Positions 1,916 to 62,312 of a stretch of 64,000 bases of DNA are shown here, piece after piece. The stretch is from positions 1 through 64,000 of the forward strand of contig CALKDK010000010.1 in assembly GCA_938084055.1 (NCBI GenBank). The letters are read 5' to 3'. The notes under the pieces are model-generated. The model did not search any database. It was not told the origin of the DNA and saw only the letters and a list, made by a program, of their open reading frames with translations. The position numbers and the translations under genes are program-made. How positions within the stretch are numbered: the stretch's first letter is position 1; every line of letters begins with the position of its first letter. The DNA is from an uncultured Luminiphilus sp. (GTDB lineage Bacteria; Pseudomonadota; Gammaproteobacteria; Pseudomonadales; Halieaceae).

Positions 1916-2407
1916 ATGGTTTCCGTGCTTTTTGTTTGCCTTGGCAACATATGCAGATCCCCAACCGCAGAGGGTGTGTTTAGGAGCATGTGCCATAGGC
2001 AGGGTGTTGGTGCCGACCTGCAGATTGACTCGGCAGGCACGGCCGCCTGGCACGTTGGCAAAAGGCCCGATGCCCGTGCCGTGGCAGCAGCAGCGCGCCA
2101 CGGCATCGATTTATCGCCCTTGCGGGCGCGACAGGTGACGCCTCAAGATTTTTCCGGGTTCGATTATATCTTGGCCATGGACGAGGATAACCTTGCCGAC
2201 CTGCGGGCCATGCGACCTGCAAACGCGTTGGCTCGTGTTGAACTGTTCCTCAGCCACGCCCTGGGACAAAGCCTGTGCGACGTTCCCGATCCCTATTATG
2301 GCGGTGACGATGGCTTTGAGCATGTGATCGAACTGACCAGGGAGGCCTCAGCCGGTTTCCTCACCCATCTCATAGCCCGGGGAAAAATTGCGGCACACAG
2401 GCGATAG
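1916..2407 (+). CDS. Low-molecular-weight protein-tyrosine phosphatase
   Basis: The 163-residue protein opens with the LMW-PTP P-loop: nucleophile Cys8, five residues, then Arg14 and Ser15 (CLGNICRS). The general-acid Asp motif DPYYGG is present near residue 122. Length matches the family (about 150-165). Such cytosolic enzymes dephosphorylate phosphotyrosine; bacterial members often act on tyrosine kinases of polysaccharide export, but no such kinase is in the window, so the partner is unknown. It is divergent from the sulfatase and convergent with arsC. Arsenate reductase relatives share this fold, but the DPYYGG motif favours the phosphatase. Confidence 0.9.
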   Translation: MVSVLFVCLGNICRSPTAEGVFRSMCHRQGVGADLQIDSAGTAAWHVGKRPDARAVAAAARHGIDLSPLRARQVTPQDFSGFDYILAMDEDNLADLRAMRPANALARVELFLSHALGQSLCDVPDPYYGGDDGFEHVIELTREASAGFLTHLIARGKIAAHRR

Positions 2408-2438
2408 CGCCTGCCGCTCAGGGGACGCAGGGCCGGAC

Positions 2439-2795
2439 TCAGTCGTCTAAGAGTAACAGGACGTTCTCTGGCGGACGGCCCAGGACGGCAGTGTCATCAT
2501 CCCGCAGCACGACGGGGCGCTCGATCAAAACAGGGTGTTGCACCATGGCCTTCAACAAGTCTTCATCCGAAGCGTTTCTACCCATGGCGAGACTTTTGAA
2601 CTGAGCTTCCCCACGGCGCACCAGGTCTCCCGGCTTTATGTTCAGGGCAGCCAGTACAGCCTCAATTTCGCTCCGAGTAGGGATGTCTTCCAGATAACGG
2701 CGTTCAACAACAGCCACACCACGCTCCTGAAGCAAGGCCAGTGTTTGGCGGGATTTAGAGCAGCGCGGGTTGTGCCAAATGGTGTACTGGGGCAT
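2439..2795 (-). CDS. arsC: Arsenate reductase, glutaredoxin-type (ArsC/Spx family)
   Basis: A 118-residue protein with the ArsC N-terminus HNPRCSKSR, whose single Cys12 is the expected catalytic thiol, and a later conserved RRGEAQFK region followed by HPVLIERP. These are typical of glutathione/glutaredoxin-coupled arsenate reductases, which reduce arsenate to arsenite in the cytosol. It is the last gene of a minus-strand set metY, alpha/beta hydrolase, arsC, with 13 bases after the hydrolase stop. No arsenite efflux gene is adjacent, so a housekeeping role rather than a full ars operon is likely. Family naming is firm; the true substrate is inferred. Confidence 0.88.
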   Translation of the reverse strand: MPQYTIWHNPRCSKSRQTLALLQERGVAVVERRYLEDIPTRSEIEAVLAALNIKPGDLVRRGEAQFKSLAMGRNASDEDLLKAMVQHPVLIERPVVLRDDDTAVLGRPPENVLLLLDD

Positions 2796-2808
2796 TGCGA
2801 GTGGGTCC

Positions 2809-3597
2809 TCAAATAATCTGGTGCAGGGCGTCGAGCATGGCGTTGGGTGCCTCCATCATAATCGTGTGGCCCGCGCCCTCAAGTATTTTTGTCTGGGGGC
2901 TGGCAAAGGATTCGACAAGGTGACGCGTGCCCCTGACCGGTGTTAACCGGTCCTCACTGCCCAACAACAGAAGAACAGGACAGGCGACCCGGGCAGCATT
3001 CTCAAGTCCTTGCTGATAGGCATTGCAGGCCGCCATATCATGGAAAAGAGCTCCTGGTCGAGACCGCTCGTACAGGCGCAGGGTATTGCCGATCATCCAG
3101 ATACCTGAATTGCGGTTGCCCCCGAACTGGTGGCGTTTACTGAAACCCCACTGGGTAAGCATGTCATAGGCGCTGTGCTGATTTGCTTTGGAGGCGTCGA
3201 GAATCGCGTCAGATACAGGCATGGGCGCCGTGGTACCCACCATGGCGAGGGCTCTGGCCCGATCGGGGAATCGGGCTGCACAGTCCAGTGCGATGAGCGA
3301 GCCCAGGCTGTGTCCGACCAGTGCAGCCTGATCTATATTGATTGCATCCATCACGGCCACCAGCCACGAGGCCATAGCCTCGACAGATGTTAGCGGGTCG
3401 CCCGCAGAGCGACCGTGGCCGGGTAGGTCAACGTTGATAACGTTGTTGCCGTGGCGGGCAAAATGCCGACTGGCAAGTGTCCAGACAGTGTGGTCCATAC
3501 CCGAGCCGTGGATGAAGACAACGCTGGGGCGATCCCTGTCGATGTCACGGGAGTTGGTATAACAGTAGGTGGTTTCACCATTGACGGTCAGTTTCAT
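2809..3597 (-). CDS. Alpha/beta hydrolase
   Basis: A 262-residue alpha/beta-hydrolase fold protein. The oxyanion strand FIHGSGMDHTVW, nucleophile elbow GHSLGS (Ser near residue 98), an acidic residue in GSEDRLTP and the terminal GAGHTIMMEAP His complete the catalytic triad. There is no signal peptide, so it is probably cytosolic. Its ATG overlaps the metY stop by four bases, implying translational coupling. The adjacent metY suggests an acyl-ester substrate, perhaps an acyl-homoserine, but this is only context; specificity cannot be read from the sequence. Confidence 0.85.
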   Translation of the reverse strand: MKLTVNGETTYCYTNSRDIDRDRPSVVFIHGSGMDHTVWTLASRHFARHGNNVINVDLPGHGRSAGDPLTSVEAMASWLVAVMDAINIDQAALVGHSLGSLIALDCAARFPDRARALAMVGTTAPMPVSDAILDASKANQHSAYDMLTQWGFSKRHQFGGNRNSGIWMIGNTLRLYERSRPGALFHDMAACNAYQQGLENAARVACPVLLLLGSEDRLTPVRGTRHLVESFASPQTKILEGAGHTIMMEAPNAMLDALHQII

Positions 3598-4913
3598 GCC
3601 GTACCTGCCTTGGCCGTCATTGATTTTGCCGCAGCACGCAAACCCTGCTTAAGGTCGGCTATGAGGTCTTTGGCATCTTCCAGTCCAATAGACAGTCGAA
3701 TCGTGCCCTCACCAATGCCGCCTGCCGCCAGTGCGTGGGCATCCATTCGATGGTGGGTGGTGCTGGCAGGGTGGATAACCAGCGACTTGGCATCGCCTAC
3801 GTTGGCCAGATGAGAGAACAGGTTCAGTGCATCAACAAAAGCGATGCCGGCCTCACGGCCCCCCGCGAGGTCGAAGCTGAAGACCGCGCCGCAGCCTTTG
3901 GGCAGCAGTTCGGCTGCCAGCGCCTGGTCGGCGTGCCCCTGGAGTTCCGGATAGCCGATGCGTGTGACCATTTCCTGGTTGGTGAGGAAATGGACGACTT
4001 CACGGGTATTTTCAACATGCCGGCTCATGCGAATTCCCAATGTCTCAATACCCTGCAGGATGTGAAATGCGGTGGTCGGACTCATACAGGCCCCCAGATC
4101 CCGCAACCCCTCCTTCCGGGCGCGCTGTATAAACGCTGCTGGCCCAAATTCTTCACTGAAGACCAGGTTATGAAATCCCACGTAGGGCTCGGTAAGGGTG
4201 GGAAATTTGGCCGAGGCGTCCCAGTCGAACCGTCCGCCATCGACCAGCAGGCCGCCGATGACAATCCCGTGGCCGCTGAGGAATTTGGTAGCCGAGTGCA
4301 TGATGATGTCGGCACCGTGTTCGAAGGGTTTTATCAGGTAGGGCGTGGTAAAGGTGGAGTCCACCATGAGTGGCAGACCCGCATCATGGGCCACTTTTGC
4401 AACCGCAGGGATATTGAGCACATCAAGGCCTGGATTGCCCACCGTTTCGGCGAATACCAGTCGGGTATTTTCCCTGATTGCCGCCGCAAAGGCGGCGGGA
4501 TCCCGGGCATCCACGAAGGAGGTTTCGATACCGAGACGGGGCAGGGTGTAGGCCAGGAGGTTGTGGCTGCCACCGTAGAGTGCGGCTGAGGCCACTATGT
4601 GGCCACCAGAGCCCATCAACGTCAGGATAGCCAGGCTCAACGCTGCTTGCCCACTGGCTGTTGCGACGGCGCCAACGCCATCCTCCAGTGCCGCAATACG
4701 CTCCTCGAGAACGGCGTTGGTGGGGTTGCTGAGTCGGGAATAAACATGACCCGCCCGCTCTATGTTAAACAGCGATGCCGCATAGTCTGAGTCTGGAAAA
4801 CAGAAGGACGCAGACTGATAAATGGGTGTGGCCCGGGCACCGGTAGCGGGATCCGGCTGGGATCCAGCATGCAATGCCAGGGTGTCCAGCCCAGGGTAGT
4901 CAGGTGCTGACAT
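3594..4913 (-). CDS. metY: O-acetylhomoserine sulfhydrylase (Cys/Met metabolism PLP enzyme)
   Basis: A 439-residue PLP enzyme of the cystathionine-gamma-synthase family. Visible are the N-terminal LHAGSQPDPATGARATPIYQ segment, YSRLSNPTN, the active-site Lys in MHSATKFLSGHG, and the C-terminal SLVIHPASTTH. Length and the LHAGQ-like start fit MetY, which makes homocysteine from O-acetylhomoserine and sulfide in the cytosol. The ATG at 4913 has AGGAG six to seven bases upstream; the reading frame continues upstream without stops to 5162, but family alignment begins here. It heads an operon with the hydrolase and arsC. Confidence 0.9.
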   Translation of the reverse strand: MSAPDYPGLDTLALHAGSQPDPATGARATPIYQSASFCFPDSDYAASLFNIERAGHVYSRLSNPTNAVLEERIAALEDGVGAVATASGQAALSLAILTLMGSGGHIVASAALYGGSHNLLAYTLPRLGIETSFVDARDPAAFAAAIRENTRLVFAETVGNPGLDVLNIPAVAKVAHDAGLPLMVDSTFTTPYLIKPFEHGADIIMHSATKFLSGHGIVIGGLLVDGGRFDWDASAKFPTLTEPYVGFHNLVFSEEFGPAAFIQRARKEGLRDLGACMSPTTAFHILQGIETLGIRMSRHVENTREVVHFLTNQEMVTRIGYPELQGHADQALAAELLPKGCGAVFSFDLAGGREAGIAFVDALNLFSHLANVGDAKSLVIHPASTTHHRMDAHALAAGGIGEGTIRLSIGLEDAKDLIADLKQGLRAAAKSMTAKAGTA

Positions 4914-5235
4914 GGGATTCTCCTCGATCGGTGACCAGTTGTGCCGTTCCCCCCGCCGATGCAGATTTTCAGCACATGTGAAGACAGCAGTTCGATGCCA
5001 CCAAAGGTAACAGCCATCGCCGGGCTGATCGTGGTGGATTGGGCGCACTGCAAACGGAGTCAGATTGTACTGCTTCGGTTCCCAGGGTAACAGCGGTGTG
5101 TTGCGATCAGAAGAACTGGAAGTAGTGGCCATCACAGGGGTTGCTGACGCCTGGACTGCCACGTACTTGCTCCTGGGCCAACGAGCAGGGTGTCGAACTG
5201 GCTAGCCCGACGCCCTGTCGGTGGGTGTTAGAGAC
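4914..5235. other. Intergenic region upstream of metY
   Basis: About 320 bases between metY and the secreted-protein gene, both on the minus strand. The metY frame stays open through most of it (to 5162), but the translation resembles no recognised domain and has no better ribosome site. I looked for SAM, SAH or cobalamin riboswitch cores and saw none I could support. Probably the metY leader and promoter plus the 3' end region of the upstream gene. Confidence 0.4.
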
Positions 5236-6000
5236 TCAACTGCCGCTACGAACCAGTGTCGCGGTATACATGCGCGGACTGTCGCATGAAACCACTGAAC
5301 CAACGGTATCCTGGTATGCCTTCCAACCATTCTGGTTAACGTATTTTTCTGCGTTTTCGCCGTAGGCTGTCAGGTCAGAAACCCAACTGGATATCTTCAT
5401 CTGGTAATCGGCATCCTGGGGGTTGCCGTGACCCGGCAGGTGGTAAACCGTAACCTCGTTGACGCCCTGGCCGTCGAGGTAGGCATTGTATTTTTCAGTC
5501 GCTGCCATCAGGTCCTCAAAGCGCCGCCCTTCCTTGAAGCTGCAGTCGGTGAAGCTGGCATAACCCGAAGATGCTTCACCATCGTTGGCTCGAACAATCA
5601 TGGAAGCAAACTCCATGTGGGCACTACAGGTCCAGACGTCATTGAATTTGGCGTTGAGTTCCGCGCCTTCGGTGAACCACATGTCGAGGCTCTTGCCCAT
5701 GTCCACGAAGTCCGGGGTGAAGCCAAACCAGAATGCCGTGCGCTCAAAGTTAATGTCAGCGCCAAACACTGGGGTCAATATCCAGGCGAAATAGTTTTCC
5801 AGGTTTTTCTCATCAGCCCAGCCATTCCATTCGCTGACGACGTTCATGAGATCAGCGGGTGACTGGCCTTCATTCATTTCACAGCCATACAGTTCTGTGC
5901 CGCCCCAGCCGCCTCCCATGTGGTCATCAGCTCTGGTGGTTGGTGCCAGCAGGGCCCCGACGACAGCCGCGGTGATCAGCAGTTGATACATTTTGTTCAC
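5236..6000 (-). CDS. Secreted protein of unknown function
   Basis: About 254 residues. The likely start is the GTG at 6000, with GGAG six bases upstream; an internal ATG at 5991 and an upstream start at 6027 are alternatives. An N-terminal signal peptide (MNKMYQLLITAAVVGALLAP then TTRADD) predicts export to the periplasm or outside. The mature part is acidic, rich in Trp, Phe and Tyr, with four Cys spread across it (CEMNEG, WTCSAH, FTDCSF, VVSCDS), which could form disulfides. It shows two similar-looking halves, each with a Cys followed by an acidic-aromatic helix (DLMNVVSEWN and DLMAATEKYN). I do not recognise the family. Confidence 0.75.
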   Translation of the reverse strand: MNKMYQLLITAAVVGALLAPTTRADDHMGGGWGGTELYGCEMNEGQSPADLMNVVSEWNGWADEKNLENYFAWILTPVFGADINFERTAFWFGFTPDFVDMGKSLDMWFTEGAELNAKFNDVWTCSAHMEFASMIVRANDGEASSGYASFTDCSFKEGRRFEDLMAATEKYNAYLDGQGVNEVTVYHLPGHGNPQDADYQMKISSWVSDLTAYGENAEKYVNQNGWKAYQDTVGSVVSCDSPRMYTATLVRSGS

Positions 6001-6170
6001 ATTTCTCTCCTTACGGTAATGCTCCAATGCCCCAGACTCATATGTCCTGTAGAGGTTGTCGGGGGCCCCAGAGCAAATATAAGGAACGTGGTGCGCTTTT
6101 AAACCAGCAAGAGCAGCGGTGTGATCCCGGTCACATAAAAGCGGGGAACTTTGCCGAGTAGGCCACCTAT

Positions 6171-6241
6171 ATCCCCTCGGTTATCTGCAGGCCCGGGCGC
6201 CAAGAGAATTCATGGCGGGTGGCGCAGATATCCGAGGGGAT
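6171..6241. repeat. Long inverted repeat (18-bp arms) in intergenic DNA
   Basis: Bases 6171-6188 (ATCCCCTCGGTTATCTGC) and 6224-6241 (GCAGATATCCGAGGGGAT) are reverse complements at 17 of 18 positions, with a 35-base GC-rich spacer containing a smaller imperfect stem. It lies just beyond the 3' end of the PQQ dehydrogenase gene. There is no T-run after either arm, so a classical intrinsic terminator is not supported. It could be an mRNA-stabilising hairpin, a regulatory dyad or a repeated extragenic element. Confidence 0.7.
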
Positions 6242-6286
6242 GTGCCTGCTGTTCAGTAGCATGGTCGCGATTGGTTGGACACGCTT

Positions 6287-8530
6287 TCACGGTGCCGGCT
6301 GACCATGCCAATCCCCCGACTCCAGTAGGCTTTCATAGTGGAGCCAGGCGGCATCGATCAGATACACATGCAGCGCCTCAACGTCTTCCGGGCTCAGTAG
6401 ATCTGAAAAGTTGCCCATGCCTTTTTCCGCCAGGGTACCTTCCAGCAGGATGGCGGTAAATGTTGTGTGTGTGACTGAGCCCATCAGTCTCAGATCAGGT
6501 ATGCCCGAGCCCCGGCCATCAATATTTGAATGGCATTTGGCGCAGTTTCTCAGATAGAGGGACTCGCCCAACGAAACTTGCAGCGCGGTGCCCCGGCGGG
6601 GCAGGGGGGGTGGCTCAAGTGCCTTGTCTACTCGGGGTATGGCCGGTCGTTTTGGCACCGGGCCCCCGCCGAGTTTGAAGGCTACCAGCCTGCCGGCGTT
6701 ACCGTAGGTGTAGGCGGCCATGCCGGGGACGTAGTCGTTGCCATTACCGCCGCCAATTCCCGTCAGGATGGCCAGGTATTGAGTTCCATTGATGCTGTAG
6801 CTCATCGGTGCCGCCATCATGCTGGCTCCGACATCGAGTCTGTGCAATTCCTCACCGGTTTCTGCATCCATCGCCACCAGATCACCGGTTCCCCGGCCCT
6901 GGATAACCAGCTGGCCCGCCGTGCTGAGGACCCCTCCACCGTTCCAGAAGGCATTCATGGTGCCTACCCAGGGGCCGGAAGTTTCATGTTCCCAGACGAG
7001 GGTTTGGGTTACGGGATCCCAGGCCCGCAGGAAACCGCGAATAGTGGTGTCGGGTTGTCCTGCGGCAAGTACGTCTATGGGGGGGAGTGTTTTCGCCAGT
7101 GCGCTGTCGAGACCCCACTCACCGGGTGTCGTGAAGATGTACTGGGCAAAGCTGTTCAGCCCGCCCTGCTGGTAGGTAAACGGTTCTTTGGGCATCGTCC
7201 ATATCGCACCCGCTTCCTTGACGGGAATGTACACCAGTCCCGTTGTCTGACTGTAGGACATGGGCTGCCAGTTGTGCGCGCCCTGTGGGCCCGGAAAGAT
7301 AAGCTTGGGTGCATGGAAGTATTCGGCCTGATCTGTTTCAACAGGTCTACCCGAGGTTAAATCAACATGGCTGGCCCAGTTCACAGACGCATAGGGTTGC
7401 GCGGAGATGAGTTCGCCTGTTTCTCGGTCAAGCACGTAAAAAAAGCCGTTTTTGGGGGCCTGCATCAGCACCCGGCGCACAGCACCGTCAACTTCAAGGT
7501 CCGTGAGTATCATCTTCTGAGTGGCGGTGAAGTCCCAGTTGTCCCCGGGACTGGTTTGGTAATGCCATACCAGTCGTCCCGTATCAGGGTTGATGGCCAG
7601 GATGGAAGCGAGATACAGGTTGTCGCCGCCTGTGGGGCTGCGCAGTTTCCTGGGGTAGGGCGCGGCATTGCCGGTTCCGACATAGAGAAGGTTCAGTTCA
7701 GGATCGAATGCCATCGCATCCCACACGGTGCCACCGAGACCCACTTCCCACAAGCTATCGGGGTCCCAGGAGGCAGCCGCGTTGGCCAGCTCAGGATGCT
7801 CCCACGGGCCATCGGCGCTATCGGGTACGGTAAAAAAACGCCAGCGTTCCGAGCCCGTCTCGACGTCATAGGCGGTAAGGTAGCCACGGGCATCGAATTC
7901 AGCCCCTGCATTGCCGATGATCACCAGGTCGTTGGCTATATAGGGGGCACCGGTAATGGTGTAGCCCCGGTTCCTGTCCGTTAGTGTGTCCACTTGCCAG
8001 CGAACGGTACCGTCCCGGCTATCCAGCGCGTACAGATAGCCATCAAGTGCGCCGACAAACAACGTGTCCCCCGACAGTGCAACACCGCGATTGACCACGC
8101 CACAACACACCTTGCGCATGAACTGAGGGTCTATCTGGGGGTCGAACTGCCACAGCAGGGCACCGGTAGCGGCATTAACCGCGAAGGCAATACCCTGGGG
8201 TCCGCTGGCATAAAGCACACCATCCACCATCAGGGGTGTGGCCTCGTAACCGTGCTCCATGGGCAGGTCGAGGTGCCAGGCGTAGCCAAGTTCCCCAACC
8301 GTATCCCGGTTGATCTGATCCAGCGGGGAAAAATAAGTCTGCTGGTAATCGCGCCCCCCTGTCAGCCATGTTCCCGGTTCGTTATCCAGTGACATCAGTC
8401 GCGCTTGACTGATCCCGCCAGCTGTCGCGGTCGACTGGTGGCCTGGCTTATCCGTACCGTCGTCAGGCGGTACGCAGGCCACCAGGGACGCGACTAACCA
8501 CCCTGACTGAAGAAGGGCAAGTCGTCTCAT
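6287..8530 (-). CDS. PQQ-dependent dehydrogenase with C-terminal cytochrome c domain (lipoprotein)
   Basis: A 747-residue quinohemoprotein. A signal ending in LVAC at Cys19 predicts lipidation and membrane anchoring in the periplasm. The beta-propeller body carries the vicinal disulfide pair Cys142-Cys143 and motifs such as NWDFTATQ and YVGTGNAAPYP, typical of PQQ alcohol dehydrogenases. The C-terminal about 90 residues form a cytochrome c domain with heme motif CAKCH at 663-667. Such enzymes oxidise alcohols or aldehydes and pass electrons to cytochromes or quinone. Substrate unknown. Its ATG overlaps the stop of the small exported protein upstream, so the two are probably coupled. No PQQ biosynthesis gene is in the window. 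Confidence 0.88.
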   Translation of the reverse strand: MRRLALLQSGWLVASLVACVPPDDGTDKPGHQSTATAGGISQARLMSLDNEPGTWLTGGRDYQQTYFSPLDQINRDTVGELGYAWHLDLPMEHGYEATPLMVDGVLYASGPQGIAFAVNAATGALLWQFDPQIDPQFMRKVCCGVVNRGVALSGDTLFVGALDGYLYALDSRDGTVRWQVDTLTDRNRGYTITGAPYIANDLVIIGNAGAEFDARGYLTAYDVETGSERWRFFTVPDSADGPWEHPELANAAASWDPDSLWEVGLGGTVWDAMAFDPELNLLYVGTGNAAPYPRKLRSPTGGDNLYLASILAINPDTGRLVWHYQTSPGDNWDFTATQKMILTDLEVDGAVRRVLMQAPKNGFFYVLDRETGELISAQPYASVNWASHVDLTSGRPVETDQAEYFHAPKLIFPGPQGAHNWQPMSYSQTTGLVYIPVKEAGAIWTMPKEPFTYQQGGLNSFAQYIFTTPGEWGLDSALAKTLPPIDVLAAGQPDTTIRGFLRAWDPVTQTLVWEHETSGPWVGTMNAFWNGGGVLSTAGQLVIQGRGTGDLVAMDAETGEELHRLDVGASMMAAPMSYSINGTQYLAILTGIGGGNGNDYVPGMAAYTYGNAGRLVAFKLGGGPVPKRPAIPRVDKALEPPPLPRRGTALQVSLGESLYLRNCAKCHSNIDGRGSGIPDLRLMGSVTHTTFTAILLEGTLAEKGMGNFSDLLSPEDVEALHVYLIDAAWLHYESLLESGDWHGQPAP

Positions 8531-9016: not shown

Positions 9017-9730
9017 TCAGCGCAGTAACCACCCGAGAAAACTGGTCCGTGGTTTGGCGGCGTAGGGCGCCACCATCTGTACCGCGTGGTCGACTGGAAT
9101 CAGGAATATATTCAGGGTGTTGAAGGCGGGCTTGAAGGCCTCAATGATGTTACCCCCGTCATCATAGAAGGCCAGGTGCCCGCCCCAGTTTTCGTCCCAA
9201 TCAGGCGTCATACTGAGTATCCACGCCGCGACCCGGTCGTGGGTTGGATGGCGGTCGGCGTGTTTGGTAAGAAAGTGCCCGCGACTGTACCAACTGGCGT
9301 AGCTGTCAGAGGTGCGAATATCTGTGCGCCCGGTTAGGGCGCGCATAAAGCTGAGGAAGCCTTCGCCGGTTACCCAATCATTCACCCCGTGCATGGGATG
9401 GCCCTGGTTCTCGCCATTTTTTATCGCCTGGCTGATGTAGTACTGCCAGAACACATATTGAAACTCTCGCCCCGCACGACGATAGAGGTTGCCCATAAAG
9501 CGCTGCTGTTGTTGGGGCGCAAGTGCTTTGAATTGCTGTTCGCTGCTCTCGAAGTTCTCGGCGCCCTCGTTGTAGGTCAGGTACCACTGGTCGTGGTTTA
9601 ACAGCAGTGCATGTAGCTGTCGCGCTGTCGCGTCTGTGGCGAATTCTGGGATCTGGAGTCGTCCCGTTGCGCTGAGTTGCTCAGACAACGAGGCCGGATC
9701 ATGAGCAGGATTGATTTCAAATTCTGTCAT
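9017..9730 (-). CDS. 2OG-Fe(II) oxygenase (prolyl-hydroxylase-like)
   Basis: A 237-residue protein with the Fe(II) facial triad of 2-oxoglutarate oxygenases: HADRHP supplies the His-x-Asp and VDHAVQMVAPYA the distal His, followed by an Arg in PRTSFLGWL that fits 2OG binding. The double-stranded beta-helix region (residues about 125-237) resembles prolyl 4-hydroxylase alpha-subunit domains. No signal peptide is seen. It would hydroxylate a protein or small-molecule substrate, unknown here. It is followed by the PQQ dehydrogenase gene pair in the same direction after about 220 bases, with no evidence of coupling. Confidence 0.82.
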   Translation of the reverse strand: MTEFEINPAHDPASLSEQLSATGRLQIPEFATDATARQLHALLLNHDQWYLTYNEGAENFESSEQQFKALAPQQQQRFMGNLYRRAGREFQYVFWQYYISQAIKNGENQGHPMHGVNDWVTGEGFLSFMRALTGRTDIRTSDSYASWYSRGHFLTKHADRHPTHDRVAAWILSMTPDWDENWGGHLAFYDDGGNIIEAFKPAFNTLNIFLIPVDHAVQMVAPYAAKPRTSFLGWLLR

Positions 9731-29429: not shown

Positions 29430-30194
29430 ATGAAATCTATCTTCATTACCGGTGGTGGCAGAGGGATAGGACTCGCCATCGGGCAGAAGTTTGCGAGGAA
29501 GGGTTGGTTCGTCGGGCTTTACGACCTGGATGAAACGATGTGTCAGGAGCGGCTTGCGGCGGCGCCCTTCGATGGGACAGGGGTGGCCGGCTTTATTGAC
29601 GTCACGGATTCCGATTCAGTGACCGCCGCCCTTGCGGACTTTGCCAGCAGGTCGGGAGGGCGTCTGGATGTCTTGGTCAACAACGCGGGCGTACTGTCTG
29701 TCGGTGATTTTGCCCAGACCGCTCCTGCGCAGATTGCCAATGTAATTGGCGTTAATGTGCAGGGTCTCACCACGGTATCTCAGCGGGCGTTTCCCTACCT
29801 GTGTGATACCCCCGATGCTACGGTAATCAATTTGTGTTCGGCCAGTAGCGTGCATGGTATCCCCTGGCTCAGCGTTTACAGTGCCAGCAAATTTTATGTC
29901 GATGGCCTGACTCAGGCGCTGAATATTGAATGGGCGACACACGACATCCACGTGACCTGCCTGAAACCTCCGGCGATCAACACTGAAATGGGCCATCGGC
30001 TGGAGCCTCGCCACAAGGCCAGGATGCCCATCGACATGGAGGTCGAGCAGGTGGCGGAGGCAGCCTTTGCCGCGGTCATTCACCGTCGCCCCCACCATTT
30101 GTTGGGTCGTCGGGTCAGGTTATGGTATGTGTTGGAGGGGCTGTTGCCGGCTCGTTGGGCGCGTCGCCTGACCTGCTACTTGGTGGGCGCCTGA
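29430..30194 (+). CDS. Short-chain dehydrogenase/reductase
   Basis: A 254-residue classical SDR. The ATG at 29430 has GGGAG eight bases upstream. It shows the cofactor motif TGGGRGIG, NNAGVLS, the catalytic Tyr and Lys in YSASK and an upstream Ser in CSASS. Substrate unknown. The C-terminal segment after residue about 215 is basic and hydrophobic and may associate with membrane. It is followed by a membrane-protein gene 35 bases on, probably the same transcript. It marks the left border of the photosynthesis cluster. Confidence 0.87.
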   Translation: MKSIFITGGGRGIGLAIGQKFARKGWFVGLYDLDETMCQERLAAAPFDGTGVAGFIDVTDSDSVTAALADFASRSGGRLDVLVNNAGVLSVGDFAQTAPAQIANVIGVNVQGLTTVSQRAFPYLCDTPDATVINLCSASSVHGIPWLSVYSASKFYVDGLTQALNIEWATHDIHVTCLKPPAINTEMGHRLEPRHKARMPIDMEVEQVAEAAFAAVIHRRPHHLLGRRVRLWYVLEGLLPARWARRLTCYLVGA

Positions 30195-30229
30195 TTCTGC
30201 AAGCTGAAGATCGAAAGGAGGTAACAGCA

Positions 30230-30736
30230 GTGCGCAAGCTGATGAAATTTGCCCACACACTGGGTGCCGTGGGGCTGTTAGGCACTATGGTTACGTTGGT
30301 GCTGGTACTGGGGTTTTTGCCGCGTCCCGTTGACGACATACAAAGTTACTCGATGCTGACTGAATTGGTTGATCGGCTGGCTCGCTGGGTGCTTTTGCCA
30401 GCGTTAACGGTGACCCTCGTATCCGGCTTGCTGGCCATGGCGCTTGGCCCTTCGTTTCACAGTTCTGGTTGGGCGTGGATGAAACTTGCCACGGGAATCC
30501 TCATGTTTGAAGGAACTCTGCTCACTGTGCAGGGTCCGCTGCAGCGCGAGGCGGAACTCACGCGGCAATTTCTCGATGGCGTGGTGACAATCGAAGCCCT
30601 CGCGGATAGCTTCTGGGCAGTCAACAACTCAATACTGATATTGGGGGGGGTGGCGGTATTCAATATCGGCATGGGGATTTGGCGACCGCGTTTCTCCCGC
30701 AGTTCGGAAGGGTCAGCCGAGGTCGCGGAACATTAG
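30230..30736 (+). CDS. Four-helix integral membrane protein (DUF2269-like)
   Basis: About 168 residues from the GTG at 30230, preceded by GGAGG at eight bases. Four hydrophobic segments (about residues 8-28, 50-72, 80-100 and 135-155) predict an inner-membrane protein. The pattern KFAHTLGAVGLLGTM recalls DUF2269 family membrane proteins, a tentative match. Its 3' end overlaps the convergent BLUF gene by 24 bases. Function unknown. Confidence 0.7.
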   Translation: MRKLMKFAHTLGAVGLLGTMVTLVLVLGFLPRPVDDIQSYSMLTELVDRLARWVLLPALTVTLVSGLLAMALGPSFHSSGWAWMKLATGILMFEGTLLTVQGPLQREAELTRQFLDGVVTIEALADSFWAVNNSILILGGVAVFNIGMGIWRPRFSRSSEGSAEVAEH

Positions 30737-31192
30737 CGCCAGCCGCTCGCCACGGCTGAGCGCTTTTAGAAATGCGCGGGGTTCCTCTTCGTTATCAAAA
30801 AAATTGGAGTAGCCTCTTAACATTGAGACGTCAATACCATCGAGATCGATGAAGCCCATGCGCCAGTCGCTGAACTCCCTGACGTCCAGTGGCTCGTCAA
30901 AGAGAACTTCCACCCCCTCGTGTCGGATATCACGCTGTATGAGTGCAAATGTCGCATCAACGTTCGCCCGGTTGCCCTCTATGACCTGGAAAAATGATTG
31001 ATTCTTGTGCAGAAGGATACCCGATATGTTCCGTTCCTCGTTTTGTTCACGGGCCTCCTGGAGCAGGCCTATAAGATCAGCTGCTGTCATTACCCGCGTT
31101 TGGGTACTCACATAGGCGAGGTGGACCAATTCATCTTCGGGGCGGCAGAAGTCACTGTTACTGGCCTTGGGTAGGATAGTGTCGCTGCGCAT
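30713..31192 (-). CDS. Short BLUF-domain blue-light sensor
   Basis: A 159-residue protein from the ATG at 31192, which has GGAGG eight bases upstream. The BLUF domain (residues about 22-115) keeps the flavin-photocycle residues: Tyr27 in LAYVST, Asn55 in NISGILL, Gln69 in FFQVIEGN, and Trp110/Met112 in FSDWRMGF. The last about 45 residues resemble the helical cap of short PixD-type BLUF proteins; there is no effector domain. Such proteins bind FAD and change partner binding in blue light. It is divergent from acsF across 218 bases holding a perfect PpsR box, so a role in light control of photosynthesis genes is inferred. No AppA-like heme/B12 domain is fused. Confidence 0.9.
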   Translation of the reverse strand: MRSDTILPKASNSDFCRPEDELVHLAYVSTQTRVMTAADLIGLLQEAREQNEERNISGILLHKNQSFFQVIEGNRANVDATFALIQRDIRHEGVEVLFDEPLDVREFSDWRMGFIDLDGIDVSMLRGYSNFFDNEEEPRAFLKALSRGERLALMFRDLG

Positions 31193-31304
31193 ACATGGTG
31201 CCTCCATCGGCGTTGGATTGGGCAGCAACCCGGGACGGTCGCTTGCCAACTTTGTTCCCCCAACCCGATTAAGGGCAGCAAATTCCCCTTGAAGACCCTA
31301 CGCA

Positions 31305-31322
31305 AGTAAAATAACCTGTACA
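31305..31322. promoter_or_regulatory. Degenerate PpsR half-box next to acsF box
   Basis: AGT-N12-ACA matches five of six specified bases of TGT-N12-ACA and ends seven bases before the perfect box at 31330. Tandem boxes about eight bases apart allow cooperative CrtJ/PpsR binding in Rhodobacter. Low confidence by itself. Confidence 0.35.
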
Positions 31323-31329
31323 AGTATTT

Positions 31330-31347
31330 TGTCATTAAATAATGACA
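31330..31347. promoter_or_regulatory. PpsR/CrtJ box between BLUF gene and acsF
   Basis: TGTCATTAAATAATGACA is an exact TGT-N12-ACA site and also a perfect dyad of 8-base arms around a 2-base centre. It lies 63 bases before the acsF ATG and 137 bases before the BLUF start. In purple bacteria PpsR/CrtJ binds this motif and represses photosynthesis genes in oxygen or light. Binding here is inferred; the ppsR gene is 5 kb away. Confidence 0.8.
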
Positions 31348-31410
31348 TTTCGCGTGGATTGAGCCGTCAGGCCATTCACCAGACCGGTCGCCGGTTCAAA
31401 AGGAGCTCGC

Positions 31411-32466
31411 ATGACACAGGCAACGACGGTTAATGATTCCACCCAACAGGCTCTCGAGAACAGGCTTCTTGCGCCAAGGTTTTACCGAACAGATTACAAG
31501 GCACTGAGTACACTCGATGTGACCTCCGTACGGGAGGAGTGGGACGTCATGATGGCGAACTTTGCCGCTGATACAAATCGGGCTCACTTCAAGCAGAGTA
31601 TTGAATTTGATCCGGCGTCCCTCGACGTCGACCCCGAACTGAAGCGCGATTTTCTCGATCTGCTGGTCAGTTCGATCACAGCGGAGTATTCCGGCTGCGT
31701 CCTGTATCAGGAAATCGAGAAAAACGTTGAAAATCAGGATATTGCCAAGCTCATGCGGTATATGGCTCGGGACGAATCCCGCCATGCGGGCTTCATTAAT
31801 CGGGCCTTGAAGCAATTGGGTGTTGCCGTGGACCTGAGTGTTCTGAAGCAAACCAAGGAATATCACTACTTCCGCCCCAAGTTTATTTACTACGCCACGT
31901 ACCTGTCGGAAAAAATAGGCTATGCCCGTTACATTACGATTTACCGGCATCTGCAGCGCAATCCGGAGAACCAGTTCCACCCCATCTTCAACTGGTTCGA
32001 GCGATGGTGTAATGATGAGTTTGCCCATGGTGAAGCCTTCGCCCTCATGATGCGCTCCGATCCCAGGCTATTGCGTGGCCACAACAAGCTCTGGATCCGT
32101 TTTTTCCTCCTCGCGGTTTACTCCACCATGTATGTCAGGGACCACTCACGGCCAAAGCTCTATGAGGCTTTCGGTATGGACCCCACGGCCTTTGACTATC
32201 GCGTGTTTGAAATAACGTCTGAAATCTCCAAGCAGGTCTTTCCAATGACGCTTGATACCGATAATCCAAAATTTCGTGCTGGCATGGAGCGATTGCTGGC
32301 ACTGAGCGAGAGGGCCGAGGAACTCCACGCACAGGGTGGTGTTCTGAACAAGATACGGCGTCTCGGGGTTATGGCACAGTCAGGCCTTACCTTCGCACGG
32401 CTCTATTTTCTGCCAACCCTGCCCAACACCCTCCCAGAGCAGGTGTGTACGTCACCGGCGTGGTAG
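31411..32466 (+). CDS. acsF: Mg-protoporphyrin IX monomethyl ester oxidative cyclase
   Basis: A 351-residue diiron cyclase that forms ring E of bacteriochlorophyll using O2. Diiron ligands are visible in AEYSGCVLYQEIEKN, ARDESRHAGF, RWCNDEFAHGEAFALM. Length matches AcsF. The ATG at 31411 follows AAAAGGAG by six to seven bases. The gene is alone on the plus strand, divergent from the BLUF gene with a PpsR box between. Presence of AcsF and absence of the anaerobic BchE cyclase in this window fits an obligately aerobic phototroph. Confidence 0.95.
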   Translation: MTQATTVNDSTQQALENRLLAPRFYRTDYKALSTLDVTSVREEWDVMMANFAADTNRAHFKQSIEFDPASLDVDPELKRDFLDLLVSSITAEYSGCVLYQEIEKNVENQDIAKLMRYMARDESRHAGFINRALKQLGVAVDLSVLKQTKEYHYFRPKFIYYATYLSEKIGYARYITIYRHLQRNPENQFHPIFNWFERWCNDEFAHGEAFALMMRSDPRLLRGHNKLWIRFFLLAVYSTMYVRDHSRPKLYEAFGMDPTAFDYRVFEITSEISKQVFPMTLDTDNPKFRAGMERLLALSERAEELHAQGGVLNKIRRLGVMAQSGLTFARLYFLPTLPNTLPEQVCTSPAW

Positions 32467-36394: not shown

Positions 36395-37801
36395 TTATGC
36401 ATCAGATGCACTTTCACCAATTCCGTAGCGGCGAAGTTTGGTATAGAGGCTCTGGCGGCTAAGGCCGAGAATTTCAGCGGCAGATGCACGATTATCCCGG
36501 GTTAGCTTCAGCGCCGCTTGGATGCAGAGGGCCTCGATTACATCGGTAGACTCCCTGACGAGGTCTTTGAGTGGGTGTCGACCAACGCGTTCGGTCAACT
36601 GTTCGATTGAGCGAGGGAGTCGTTCGGTCAATGGGTGGTCGGCGGTAAGGCGGCGACTGATGTCCCGGATAAAAAAAACAATTTTTGGGGCATCGCCCCG
36701 TTGTACCGTGGCAGCCGATATTTCGATGTCCGATGTGGTGCCCAGGCTATTTTTCAATACCGAAGCGTACAGCTTGATGGGCCGAGCTTGTCGCAGGTTG
36801 CTGAGCATGACTGAAAGGTCCACCGTCGAACGCCCCACCCAGTTATCCAGTGTGCGGCCAATGACCTGATCAGCAGCGGCCACATTTACCCATTCGAGGA
36901 ACATCCCATTGGCATATTCTATGCGCCCATCAATGTCCACCTGCACAATGGCGTCCGGGGCAAGCTGAAAGGTATCGGCGAAGTGCATATCGCTCGCCTT
37001 ACTGTCGGAGCCAGTGCTGGACAGGCGAATCAGGTAGCGTGATTCAGGCCCCTGACGCTGGAAACTGACCAGCACATCTGTGCCGTGGGGCATATTGGGC
37101 AGGACCATTCTGCGGAGACTGGTAGCGCCGGTTTCCCGCGCAGACTCCAGCAATGTCTGCATCTCTATGGAATTCAGCGGCAGGGGGCGGCCAATAATAC
37201 TCTGTCCCTCGGTACCGAGCATGGCACTGGCCTGGGAGTTGGCTTCCAGTACCCGCCCTGTGCCCTCATCCACAACCAAAATGCCGTCACTGGTCAATTC
37301 GAGAAGCCGCCGGTAACGGTTTTCCATCTGCCGCAGCGCCCAGTAGTCCTGTTCCATGGCGTGCTGGGCGTTGATCACTTGCTGTCGCAGGTCACTGACC
37401 ACCCTGAGATCCCTGCCGACGGCAATGACACCCCCGGATGCGGGTTGAATGAGTCGAAAGCTCATCGGCAACTCGTTGCTGGTTTCGGTAGCCCGGATGT
37501 TGAGATCCACCCGTCGCGGGGTATTGGGTTCAGCCGCTGCTCGTGCGAGGGCCTCTTGGGCGCGCTCCTGGTGCTCATCAACGCAGAGTTCATGCCAGCG
37601 CCGGCCACGCCAGGGAATTCGCACGAGGTCGGTAAGTTCTGCGTTGGTGACGGCGACGTCAATGCAGAAACCTTCTGCGTCGAGTTGCAGTTGCACATCT
37701 GCAACGGCTTCCAAGACGGAAACGACGGCGGCAGTGTCCAGTTGGTTGAGCAATTGTAAAGCCCTCAGGTCGGTATAAGGTGTGCCGGGAGCGTCCTTCA
37801 A
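36395..37801 (-). CDS. ppsR: PpsR/CrtJ photosynthesis gene repressor
   Basis: A 468-residue regulator with an N-terminal sensor region, two recognisable PAS domains (about residues 160-270 and 280-400) and a Fis-type helix-turn-helix at the C-terminus (NRASAAEILGLSRQSLYTKLRRYG). A Cys at position 426 (EALCIQAALKL) sits where CrtJ has its redox-sensitive Cys; other Cys are only at 46 and 73. PpsR binds TGT-N12-ACA and represses photosynthesis genes under oxygen or light. The start is a TTG at 37801 with no ATG alternative nearby. It is divergent from bchF, with a PpsR box between, suggesting autoregulation. Confidence 0.93.
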   Translation of the reverse strand: MKDAPGTPYTDLRALQLLNQLDTAAVVSVLEAVADVQLQLDAEGFCIDVAVTNAELTDLVRIPWRGRRWHELCVDEHQERAQEALARAAAEPNTPRRVDLNIRATETSNELPMSFRLIQPASGGVIAVGRDLRVVSDLRQQVINAQHAMEQDYWALRQMENRYRRLLELTSDGILVVDEGTGRVLEANSQASAMLGTEGQSIIGRPLPLNSIEMQTLLESARETGATSLRRMVLPNMPHGTDVLVSFQRQGPESRYLIRLSSTGSDSKASDMHFADTFQLAPDAIVQVDIDGRIEYANGMFLEWVNVAAADQVIGRTLDNWVGRSTVDLSVMLSNLRQARPIKLYASVLKNSLGTTSDIEISAATVQRGDAPKIVFFIRDISRRLTADHPLTERLPRSIEQLTERVGRHPLKDLVRESTDVIEALCIQAALKLTRDNRASAAEILGLSRQSLYTKLRRYGIGESASDA

Positions 37802-37913
37802 CCCACATTTGCGGATAGGTCTACACTACATTCACGCCCATCGCATCCCAAATTAGACACTTTTGGCCAAAAAATCTTGACAGCACCAAAAGCGTCACTT
37901 TTTTTACACTTTC

Positions 37914-37919
37914 TATAAT
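37914..37919 (+). promoter_or_regulatory. Probable -10 element of bchF promoter
   Basis: A perfect TATAAT lies 87 bases before the bchF GTG and its last base is the first base of the PpsR box. No strong -35 sits at 16-18 bases, so the promoter may be weak or activator dependent. A TTGACA at 37877-37882 is too far (31 bases) to pair with it. Confidence 0.5.
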
Positions 37920-37936
37920 GTAATAAGAAGTTGACA
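37919..37936. promoter_or_regulatory. PpsR/CrtJ box between ppsR and bchF
   Basis: TGTAATAAGAAGTTGACA is an exact TGT-N12-ACA site. It begins inside the TATAAT element of the proposed bchF promoter and lies 118 bases before the ppsR start. Repressor bound here would block RNA polymerase at bchF. The partial dyad TTACA...TGTAA overlaps its left half. Confidence 0.75.
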
Positions 37937-60257: not shown

Positions 60258-61242
60258 ACACGACCTCTAGGGATGGTTGCTCCAGTTTTGTCACATCGCA
60301 CAGATCTGCCAGGCTGGCGGGTTGCAGTACGACGTTCCGACCGACAGAATCACCGTCGAACAGCCCCAGCAGGCCGTCCTGTGAAAGCGGCGTGGGATGA
60401 TGCGGTGGCGCCTCTGCAACGTTTGTGGCCAGACCGGCAAACAACGAGCCCCACTCACTTTCCGGACGGCCAATAATTTCGTAATTCGCGCTTTTACGCC
60501 GGATATCATCGTTGGCAGGAATGGAGGCCAATTCGGGTATGCCCACGGCCTCGCAAAATGCTTGAGCCTCTCCCGAGCCGTCATCCTTGTTGGTGACCAT
60601 GCCCGCAACGCCCACGTTGCCACCGAGCCGGCGGAAATATTCGACGGCGGAGCAGACGTTATTGGCAACGTAAAGTGATTGCAGATCGTTGGATGCCACC
60701 ACGATCACCTTCTGGCACATGTCCCGAGCAATCGGCAGTCCAAAACCACCGCAAACGACATCGCCAAGAAAATCGAGCAGGACGTAGTCGAAGTCCCAAT
60801 CGTGAAAACCCAGTTTTTCCAGTGTTTCGAAGCCGTGGATGATGCCGCGTCCGCCGCAGCCTCGGCCGACCTCGGGGCCTCCCAGTTCCATCGCGAATAC
60901 GCCATCGCGCTTGAAACACACGTCTTCTACCCGCACTTCATCACCCGCAGCTTTTTTTGCAGAGGCCGTTTCGATGATGGTGGGGCAGGCTTTGCCACCA
61001 AACAAAAGGGAAGTGGTATCACTTTTCGGATCGCAGCCAATCAGCAACACTTTTTTGCCCTGTTGGGCCATCATGTAGGACAGGTTGGAGAGCGTGAAAC
61101 TTTTGCCTATGCCGCCTTTCCCATAAATCGCGATGATTTGCGTTTTGGGCGCCTCCTGCGCAGAGCTGGCGATCATGTCGGCACGCTCGCCGCTAGCCTC
61201 CAGGCCGGGGTCATAAACTTGTGCAGCTTCGCTGGGACTCAT
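60244..61242 (-). CDS. bchX: Chlorophyllide reductase iron protein subunit X
   Basis: A 332-residue NifH-like ATPase that supplies electrons to BchYZ. It has [16 protein letters not shown] (the Phe after Ser is usual in BchX, unlike BchL) and cluster Cys in GRGCGGRG and [10 protein letters not shown]. The ATG at 61242 has GGAG six bases upstream and overlaps the bchC stop (ATGA). Confidence 0.96.
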   Translation of the reverse strand: MSPSEAAQVYDPGLEASGERADMIASSAQEAPKTQIIAIYGKGGIGKSFTLSNLSYMMAQQGKKVLLIGCDPKSDTTSLLFGGKACPTIIETASAKKAAGDEVRVEDVCFKRDGVFAMELGGPEVGRGCGGRGIIHGFETLEKLGFHDWDFDYVLLDFLGDVVCGGFGLPIARDMCQKVIVVASNDLQSLYVANNVCSAVEYFRRLGGNVGVAGMVTNKDDGSGEAQAFCEAVGIPELASIPANDDIRRKSANYEIIGRPESEWGSLFAGLATNVAEAPPHHPTPLSQDGLLGLFDGDSVGRNVVLQPASLADLCDVTKLEQPSLEVVYDNV

Positions 61243-62186
61243 AGTGATCTCCAATCGAGAATCATCTTCAGGCAGTGTGGATCAGAAAAAGCCCTGTCGT
61301 AGGCCGGTGCGGCCTCTTGGGCGGTGTATTGATGGGTAATCAGGTCGGTGACTGTGATGCGCCCGTCTTGCAGCAGGGCCTGGGCAAGCTCCAGGTCGGT
61401 CGGCTGCCACTCTGCAGCGACTCGGATAGTCGCTTCAGCCATGAAGGCCACTGGAAAATCGAATTGCACGGGCTGATGATAGAAGCCCGCAAGGACAATG
61501 CAGCCATCCTTATGCAGCCTCGGGAGCAGCGAATCGAGAATTTTGGCGTCACCTGAGACATCACAGATGCGACTGTAACGACTGTCATGATCGTCCTTGG
61601 GAGCCACGACGCGGTAGCTGCCGTCATGATCATGCCGGGCAGGGTTTTGCTCCCAAACGCACAGCTTTTCAGCACCTAGGGCGACACAGATACGCGCCAC
61701 CAGGCGTCCGAGTACCCCATGGCCCACTACCAACTCCGGTAGAGCGCCGTTTTCAAAGCGGTTTATGGCGTGAACAGCTGTGGCGATCAGTGCCAGCAGC
61801 ACGCCCTCAGAACCCGTAGAGGGCTGCAAGGGAACAAGGCGCTCTGAATTGACTACCAGTTGCCGAGCGGCACCGCCGAAAAGGCCGGCAACGTCCTGAA
61901 AGCCACGGCTGCCGGGCACAAAGACCACGCTGCCGGGGGTTACGGTAGCTTCCGGTCCCGCCGTAAGGACCCGTCCAACACTTTCGTAGCCCGGTACCAG
62001 GGGGTAATTGAGCCCCGGAAAGGGCGGCATACTTCCATCCCAAAGGAGCCGTTCGGTACCGGTACTGATTCCCGACCAGTCGATTTCGACAAGGCAGTCA
62101 GTTGAGTCGCAGTCTGGCAGCCCCACCTCGCGTAGCGAGAGGGTGCCTGGTGACTCGAAAACTACTGCAGTTGCAACCTGGCTCAT
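61239..62186 (-). CDS. bchC: 3-hydroxyethyl bacteriochlorophyllide dehydrogenase
   Basis: A 315-residue MDR-family oxidoreductase that oxidises the C-3 hydroxyethyl to acetyl, the last ring-A step to bacteriochlorophyll a. It starts MSQVATAVVFESPGTLSLRE at the ATG at 62186, which has GGAG seven bases upstream; a GTG at 62204 is less likely. SGISTGTERLLWDG and PLVPGYESVG are typical of BchC. It has its own PpsR-boxed promoter behind crtF. Confidence 0.95.
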   Translation of the reverse strand: MSQVATAVVFESPGTLSLREVGLPDCDSTDCLVEIDWSGISTGTERLLWDGSMPPFPGLNYPLVPGYESVGRVLTAGPEATVTPGSVVFVPGSRGFQDVAGLFGGAARQLVVNSERLVPLQPSTGSEGVLLALIATAVHAINRFENGALPELVVGHGVLGRLVARICVALGAEKLCVWEQNPARHDHDGSYRVVAPKDDHDSRYSRICDVSGDAKILDSLLPRLHKDGCIVLAGFYHQPVQFDFPVAFMAEATIRVAAEWQPTDLELAQALLQDGRITVTDLITHQYTAQEAAPAYDRAFSDPHCLKMILDWRSL

Positions 62187-62268
62187 CCAAAGGCTCCGGA
62201 GCACATGGCTCCCCCGGCTTTTTGTTATTTGCCCCTTAACGCACAGGTTTTCACCTGCATTGGGTATA

Positions 62269-62286
62269 TGTCAGTTTAAAGAGACA
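62269..62286. promoter_or_regulatory. PpsR/CrtJ box 1 at the bchC promoter
   Basis: TGTCAGTTTAAAGAGACA is an exact TGT-N12-ACA site, 83 bases before the bchC ATG. It covers the proposed -10 (TAAACT). It is paired with a second, near-perfect box exactly eight bases away. Confidence 0.8.
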
Positions 62287-62300
62287 AATGAAACTGTCAA
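62273..62300 (-). promoter_or_regulatory. Probable sigma-70 promoter of bchC
   Basis: On the minus strand TTGACA (62300-62295) is followed after 16 bases by TAAACT (62278-62273). Both elements lie inside PpsR boxes, so a repressor would occlude them. It would let bchCXYZ-puf be transcribed separately from crtEF. Confidence 0.6.
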
Positions 62301-62312
62301 CAAAAGATTACG
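62295..62312. promoter_or_regulatory. PpsR/CrtJ box 2 at the bchC promoter (degenerate)
   Basis: TGT-N12-ACG matches five of six specified bases and begins eight bases after box 1. It overlaps the crtF stop codon and the -35 TTGACA. Two boxes eight bases apart is the arrangement known at the Rhodobacter bchC promoter. Confidence 0.6.

Follow-up and report, generated by a model that had tools for sequence, protein, structure and literature searches.

The window and the divergent BLUF/acsF region

This analysis concerns a short BLUF photoreceptor gene and acsF, the gene from which it diverges, in 64,000 bases of DNA from an uncultured Luminiphilus sp.; this whole stretch is referred to as the window. 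The window is one end of a contig (C10) of a 2.92-Mb assembly that is 82.75% complete. The two genes are separated by 218 bases (31193-31410), and this region contains a PpsR-type dyad with a degenerate partner box beside it. A sequence-only reading of the window had described this arrangement, together with the presence of ppsR, and its description held. The protein encoded by ppsR has PAS domains and a C-terminal Fis-type helix-turn-helix, and its match to the PpsR family was well above the cut-off (Table 1).

Table 1. Genes, PpsR-type sites and promoter-like match in the window
Feature	Position	Strand	Basis or remark
Short stand-alone BLUF photoreceptor gene, 159 amino acids	30713..31192	-	Pfam PF04940, E 4.2e-28, residues 22-113
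acsF, aerobic Mg-protoporphyrin IX monomethyl ester cyclase	31411..32466	+	NCBIfam TIGR02029 AcsF equivalog, 554.8 bits (cut-off 192.5)
ppsR	36395..37801	-	NCBIfam TIGR02040, 619.4 bits (cut-off 275.4); PAS and HTH_8 domains
PpsR-type dyad TGTCATTA-AA-TAATGACA	31330..31347		10/10 positions of consensus TGTCA-N8-TGACA
Degenerate partner PpsR box AGTAAAATAACCTGTACA	31305..31322		6/10 positions; exactly 7 bases from the dyad
Tandem operator 1 (BLUF/acsF)	31305-31347		6/10 + 10/10 positions, spacing 7
Tandem operator 2	37893..37936		Between ppsR and bchF; pair at least 15/20, spacing 7-8
Tandem operator 3	62269..62312		Upstream of bchC; pair at least 15/20, spacing 7-8
Sigma-70-like promoter match ATGACA-16-TATTTT	31308..31335	-	Consensus match alone; mean 0.2 in shuffles
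bchF			TIGR02020; region between it and ppsR carries operator 37893-37936
bchC	61239-62204	-	TIGR01202

The dyad had been called perfect. This holds for both of its 8-bp arms and for its agreement with the consensus at every position; however, because the central AA is not self-complementary, the dyad has two mismatches to its own reverse complement and is not strictly a perfect palindrome. No second site with three or fewer mismatches to it was found in the 64 kb, and shuffled sequences gave none. The dyad lies 63 bases from the acsF ATG and 137 bases from the BLUF gene. The only promoter-like match between 31150 and 31450 reads toward the BLUF gene and is overlapped by both PpsR boxes. The AGT...ACA form of the partner box recurred in relatives (loci L004-L010).

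Single PpsR-type sites were not enriched in the window: the loose core TGT-N12-ACA occurred 11 times against 12.15 expected, and sites matching at least 8 of 10 positions occurred 15 times against 24.5 in simulated sequence. Tandem pairs were: three pairs with at least 15 of 20 matching positions and a spacing of 7-8 bases were present, compared with a mean of 0.23 and a maximum of one in 30 simulated sequences. The score of the pair in the BLUF/acsF region was reached by only 1 of 5000 simulated sequences. PpsR operators in the published Congregibacter account (PMC2654016) have the form found at 31305-31347, with tandem TGTCA-N8-TGACA boxes separated by 7-8 bases.

Conservation of the gene pair and of the operator

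The sequence-only reading had suggested examining the BLUF-acsF pair across the family. Searching 140 genomes of the family with the window BLUF protein yielded a close ortholog (E 6.3e-35 or better) in 56, and a fragment in G077, where the contig ends. BLUF and acsF were divergent at all 56 ortholog loci fetched, with BLUF identities down to about 45%; six more distant BLUF loci that were also fetched (L064-L069) had no acsF. Conversely, 57 of the 59 family genomes with acsF had the BLUF gene, counting the G077 fragment. In the remaining two (G072 and G083), the contig stops 223 bases from acsF or inside it. PpsR (E below 1e-30) was detected in 62 genomes, 56 of them with BLUF (G077 included) and six without (G069, G072, G074, G082, G083, and G088). 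Neither gene was found in 77 genomes, and the association had a Fisher p of 6e-31 with relatedness ignored.

A significant tandem pair (p<=0.05, spacing 6-8) was present in 50 of the 56 BLUF/acsF intergenic regions and in 3 of 56 control segments taken from the first bases of acsF. After a spacing of 6 was seen in one clade, the allowed range had been extended to 6-8, equally for the data, the null, and the control; the best family pairs had spacings of 6, 7, or 8. With spacings of 7-8 alone, the pair was found in 38 of 56 regions when judged against dinucleotide shuffles and in 41 of 56 when judged against first-order Markov sequences, which also served as the null for the window pair count, the region scores, the 6-8 spacing test, and the loci outside the family. 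Given this conserved operator, the BLUF gene is itself probably under PpsR control, as had been suggested.

The next gene outward of BLUF, which encodes a UPF0093/DUF2269-like membrane protein in the window, was detected at 30 of the 56 family loci, some of which are cut by contig ends. Because of this inconstancy, BLUF looks like a border gene of the photosynthesis cluster.

The BLUF protein

Of the 56 BLUF orthologs, 55 were aligned; the one at L063 was left out because its reading frame is extended at the 3' end. Residues Y27, N51, Q69, W110, and M112, which we take to be the flavin-pocket residues (Tyr, Asn, Gln, Trp, and Met) of BLUF proteins, were invariant in all 55. The C-terminal tail was also conserved around L145-F155, and these two end residues were likewise invariant. 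In a Pfam scan of the 159-residue protein, the BLUF domain ended at residue 113, and no further family and no output domain were recognized; the protein stops 46 residues after the domain. It thus has the pocket residues and only a short C-terminal extension, the architecture of PixD, BlrB, and BlsA, and not that of AppA, in which BLUF is fused to a SCHIC domain.

The earlier description of the protein as PixD-like fits its architecture. In fold, a structure model matched PixD, the AppA BLUF domain, and BlrB, with TePixD first by a small margin. By sequence, the best matches were BlrB and the BLUF domain of AppA (E 3.4e-13 for the latter). The model was modest, with a mean predicted local distance difference test (pLDDT) score of 70.9 and values near 50 in the tail; for this reason the fold of the tail was not interpreted.

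A BLUF gene with a tandem pair and no adjacent acsF

A scan of named genomes gave 51 BLUF loci, many of them from genomes already in the family list, and acsF adjoined BLUF in 48. Among the remainder, L105 ends at a contig border, and L152 was set aside because it encodes a different type of BLUF, next to a response-regulator gene. The genuine exception is L148. There the order is bchP, ppsR, a bacteriophytochrome gene, a heme oxygenase gene, and then BLUF, divergent from the heme oxygenase gene; acsF of this genome (G145) sits on another contig. In a tree of 72 tips, the L148 BLUF protein grouped within the ortholog clade, which has 62 of the tips, a support of 0.83, and no paralogs. Its BLUF/heme-oxygenase region carries a tandem PpsR-type pair with a score reached by 1 of 5000 simulated sequences. 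In the 14-kb locus, one other place scored as high or higher (17 vs. 16); the windows in question start at 9064 and 9235 and include the gap between two outward-reading genes.

Six loci lie outside the family list: L118 and L144 belong to another family of the same order, and L117, L121, L135, and L148 have no counterpart in the list. All six have the tandem pair, at p 0.003, the floor of the 300 simulations used.

Several of these loci have additional regulatory genes. The L148 cluster (2224-7262) combines its ppsR, a second copy, with a PAS-GAF-PHY phytochrome lacking a detected kinase domain, the heme oxygenase, and BLUF; red- and blue-light input at one PpsR is possible there. A second ppsR between bchP and acsF was seen in some of the outside genomes. 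It is intact in L135 (3903-5477), reduced to the N-domain plus helix-turn-helix in L121 (4481-5419), and to the helix-turn-helix alone in L117 (5179-5568).

AppA and PpaA/AerR in the BLUF-bearing genomes

The sequence-only reading had reported no AppA, PpaA, or AerR gene in the window, and none was found in the whole assembly at its 82.75% completeness. The sole other BLUF frame there codes for 151 residues. AppA is about 450 residues long. A 457-residue BLUF frame in G138 was rejected as AppA, because it consists of a short BLUF directly behind a GGDEF-EAL gene; long BLUF frames also occurred in G027 and G046, both of them genomes without PpsR.

For PpaA, a single query gave no match in the 140 family genomes, a result that carries no weight alone. 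A five-sequence PpaA profile recovered every left-out PpaA protein at 75-160 bits and those of six independent PpaA genomes at 105-139 bits. In the family genomes it gave only matches confined to the B12 region, the best at 41.9 bits, in a genome without PpsR (G053), and at 32.6 bits in PpsR-bearing genomes. Most of these weak matches lie in frames of at least 500 residues, as expected of mutases, and one in G080 (L173) was rejected because it reads as a mutase end. The first pass with this profile was loose, and skipped a 37-bit corrinoid protein of a methyltransferase in our own assembly. No B12 antirepressor gene was found upstream of ppsR. The frame at C14:73676 scored well with PF02310; it was rejected as AerR because its neighbors mark it as the corrinoid protein of a methyltransferase cluster. 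Other B12 matches were in large frames read by size as mutase and MetH; those remaining were one 133-residue frame and a weak match below the cut-off in a 416-residue frame (C47).

Among 390 genomes of the order there were 12 acsF matches, one of them spurious (G483, E 3e-4); of the 11 genuine ones, all but G280 have BLUF as the neighbor of acsF. Among 369 genomes of the class, acsF was found in five, namely our own genome and four others, and none of the four had a window-type BLUF within 1.5 kb of acsF. Together these give five acsF genomes without BLUF beside acsF, as judged within that distance (G280, G543, G625, G637, and G775). In four of the five, PpaA is directly upstream of PpsR; in G543, neither was found. 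Of the BLUF-bearing genomes outside the family list, G140, G142, and G145 gave no PpaA, and G143 had a 62-bit match on a different contig from its PpsRs. Two genomes, G141 and G144, carry both modules: one PpsR is in the BLUF cluster, and a second (partial in G144) is preceded by PpaA.

The same division was apparent in a tree of 49 PpsR proteins, which took 30 of the 62 family PpsRs and left out matches below 250 bits, among them the incomplete second copy in G144 and the ppsR remnants of L117 and L121. All 36 BLUF-linked PpsRs formed one clade (support 0.946), and the 10 PpaA-linked PpsRs lay outside it. Within the linker helix, R139 and Q151 of the window PpsR were each present in 33 of the 36 BLUF-linked proteins; the PpaA-linked proteins had Q139 in 10 of 10 and R or K at 151 in 9 of 10. 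These residues possibly reflect partner specificity and possibly descent. Positions separating the two groups were set aside because they are confounded by descent.

Comparison with known systems

A hypothesis linking BLUF and PpsR has been in print for Congregibacter since 2009. The account of C. litoralis KT71 by Spring et al. describes two BLUF genes, one of them close to ppsR, states that appA is absent, lists 15 PpsR sites, of which 12 form tandems spaced by seven or eight bases, and proposes a model in which PpsR is modulated, in a way then unknown, by a BLUF protein of a single domain (PMC2654016). Zheng et al. (2011) placed acsF near BLUF in NOR5/OM60 clusters, and found ppsR with ppaA in clusters of Roseobacter and Sphingomonadales, and crtJ in those of NOR5/OM60 (PMC3176799). 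The window resembles these clusters in arrangement, tandem spacing, and absence of AppA. The published accounts differ from the present one in that the parts consulted contain no survey of many genomes, no test of PpaA exchange, and no case independent of acsF. A 2025 review names blue-light receptors in Halieaceae, and a mechanism is absent from its consulted part (PMC12654162). Among titles and abstract openings of open-licence PMC articles, no experimental test, PpaA/BLUF exchange, or acsF-free BLUF-PpsR locus was found. What is new is the comparative evidence, which makes PpsR, and not acsF, the likely target.

Three characterized systems are informative. In Rhodobacter sphaeroides, AppA also ties a BLUF protein with a related BLUF domain to PpsR control of photosynthesis genes; it differs in carrying a four-helix bundle as well as a SCHIC domain, which is reported to bind PpsR (PMC4477167). 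PpaA/AerR, which acts with PpsR/CrtJ, resembles the window arrangement in that the partner gene is small and is linked to ppsR and to PpsR operators, but it is a B12-dependent antirepressor encoded just upstream of ppsR, whereas the candidate partner in the window is a flavin protein. In Dinoroseobacter shibae, the PpsR antirepressor LdaP is a blue-light receptor reportedly without kinase function, so a small blue-light protein can act in this way; LdaP is, however, a LOV protein, and D. shibae also has PpaA (PMC10890935).

Proposed role of the BLUF protein

We propose that the locus is a PpsR-controlled light module of the Luminiphilus/Congregibacter type, in which the stand-alone BLUF protein would serve as a light-dependent partner of PpsR in place of PpaA/AerR and AppA. 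We put the probability of this reading at a little under one half (about 0.47). Judging from the operator, PpsR bound at the tandem boxes would repress acsF as well as the BLUF gene; the way partners are distributed across genomes suggests BLUF as the protein that acts on PpsR. In the dark or in dim light, BLUF would relieve repression, and blue light would end the relief. This direction is taken from the physiology reported for C. litoralis, in which blue light lowers pigment largely independently of oxygen (PMC2654016), and for L. syltensis, in which blue light also lowers pigment (PMC3666943). Because PpsR would also repress the BLUF gene, the circuit would include positive feedback. Since AppA is reported to contact PpsR through SCHIC (PMC4477167), a lone BLUF protein would need a surface of its own, the first candidate being the conserved C-terminal tail.

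A broader reading, which we advance only tentatively, is that BLUF may have taken the place of B12-dependent PpaA/AerR as the cognate partner in one gammaproteobacterial PpsR lineage. Sensor modules (B12, BLUF, or LOV) would then be exchangeable, and some freshwater relatives would run two PpsRs in parallel, one for each sensor. If so, BLUF would bind PpsR by a surface unlike SCHIC and would be an unusually small blue-light antirepressor of photosynthesis genes, and one repressor family would have come to work with three unrelated sensors of light or of a cofactor.

Several observations weigh against the proposed role. Nothing resembling SCHIC, through which Rhodobacter AppA contacts PpsR, is recognizable in the window protein. 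Any gene passed on with the photosynthesis cluster would co-occur with PpsR in this manner, and the genomes are related; the agreement between PpsR clade and partner may stem from one split. In L135 and L148, the second PpsRs next to BLUF fall outside the BLUF-linked clade, near a Thiodictyon PpsR with weak support; because L148 and its relatives carry two PpsRs or remnants, BLUF could serve either. The PpaA-bearing genomes were checked for a window-type BLUF only within 1.5 kb of acsF. One family genome, G067 (87% complete), has BLUF and acsF, and PpsR was not found in it; six intergenic regions (L009, L020, L026, L028, L029, and L051) lack a significant tandem pair. In a published table, an OM60/NOR5 column lists BLUF but neither ppsR nor puf genes, with ortholog status unstated (PMC3679898). 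Finally, pigment in L. syltensis and P. rubra is also lowered by green light (near 520 nm), and the authors of that work considered oxidative stress as well (PMC3666943); a BLUF sensor does not readily explain repression by green light.

Alternative explanations

The BLUF gene could be merely a member of the PpsR regulon, with PpsR setting the BLUF level along with the photosystem and the protein acting on another target, such as a c-di-GMP enzyme or a PixE-like or Fur-like partner. PixE is the partner of a short BLUF protein. Another, BlsA, works through Fur (PMC5955987), and the short BLUF in G138 adjoins a GGDEF-EAL gene; the absence of any recognized domain beyond BLUF in the window protein fits as well. 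Nevertheless, no other outward neighbor is as constant, and the PpaA distribution and the L148 cluster point to PpsR. We consider this explanation possible, though less likely than the proposed role. That BLUF is a passive passenger, the outermost gene of an inherited cluster with an operator serving acsF alone, would agree with the co-inheritance of cluster genes and with the dyad being closer to acsF. It is improbable, however, given the retention of all five pocket residues in such divergent orthologs, the promoter-like match pointing to BLUF, and the L148 pair without acsF.

The sequence-only reading had also tied BLUF to the oxygen-dependent cyclase step. The constancy of the divergent pair in the family speaks for specific control of AcsF or of this step, but acsF is only one of several PpsR-type targets, and at L148 (genome G145) the tandem pair accompanies BLUF away from acsF; we regard such a specific role as very unlikely. 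PpsR is the more likely partner because of the L148 operator, the PpaA distribution, the two-module genomes, and the PpsR lineage. The view that BLUF acts on PpsR thus draws on partner distribution, L148, and published physiology. Overall, the earlier observation of a divergent pair with its PpsR-type sites was confirmed, and its interpretation as a light-control circuit was partly supported.

The NOR5/OM60 bacteria are widespread aerobic anoxygenic phototrophs, and how blue light lowers their pigment synthesis was left open in 2009. The comparative data now point to a single candidate protein, a single operator, and a single lineage of PpsR. With the two-module genomes and the acsF-free BLUF locus as natural contrasts, the 2009 speculation has become directly testable.

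Additional observations

The UPF0093/DUF2269-like gene (30122-30736) converges on BLUF in the window, and the two reading frames overlap by 24 bases; both of its family matches are below the Pfam cut-off. G439, a 1.5-Mb genome (82% complete) assigned to another family of the order, has a BLUF-acsF pair (contig C17, L177) nested among sequences of the window genus; neither PpaA nor a clear PpsR was detected in it. The second short BLUF of our own genome (151 amino acids, C6:175463-175738, L002) is on another contig, has about 30% identity to the first, and lies close to a gene that is cupin-like by eye.

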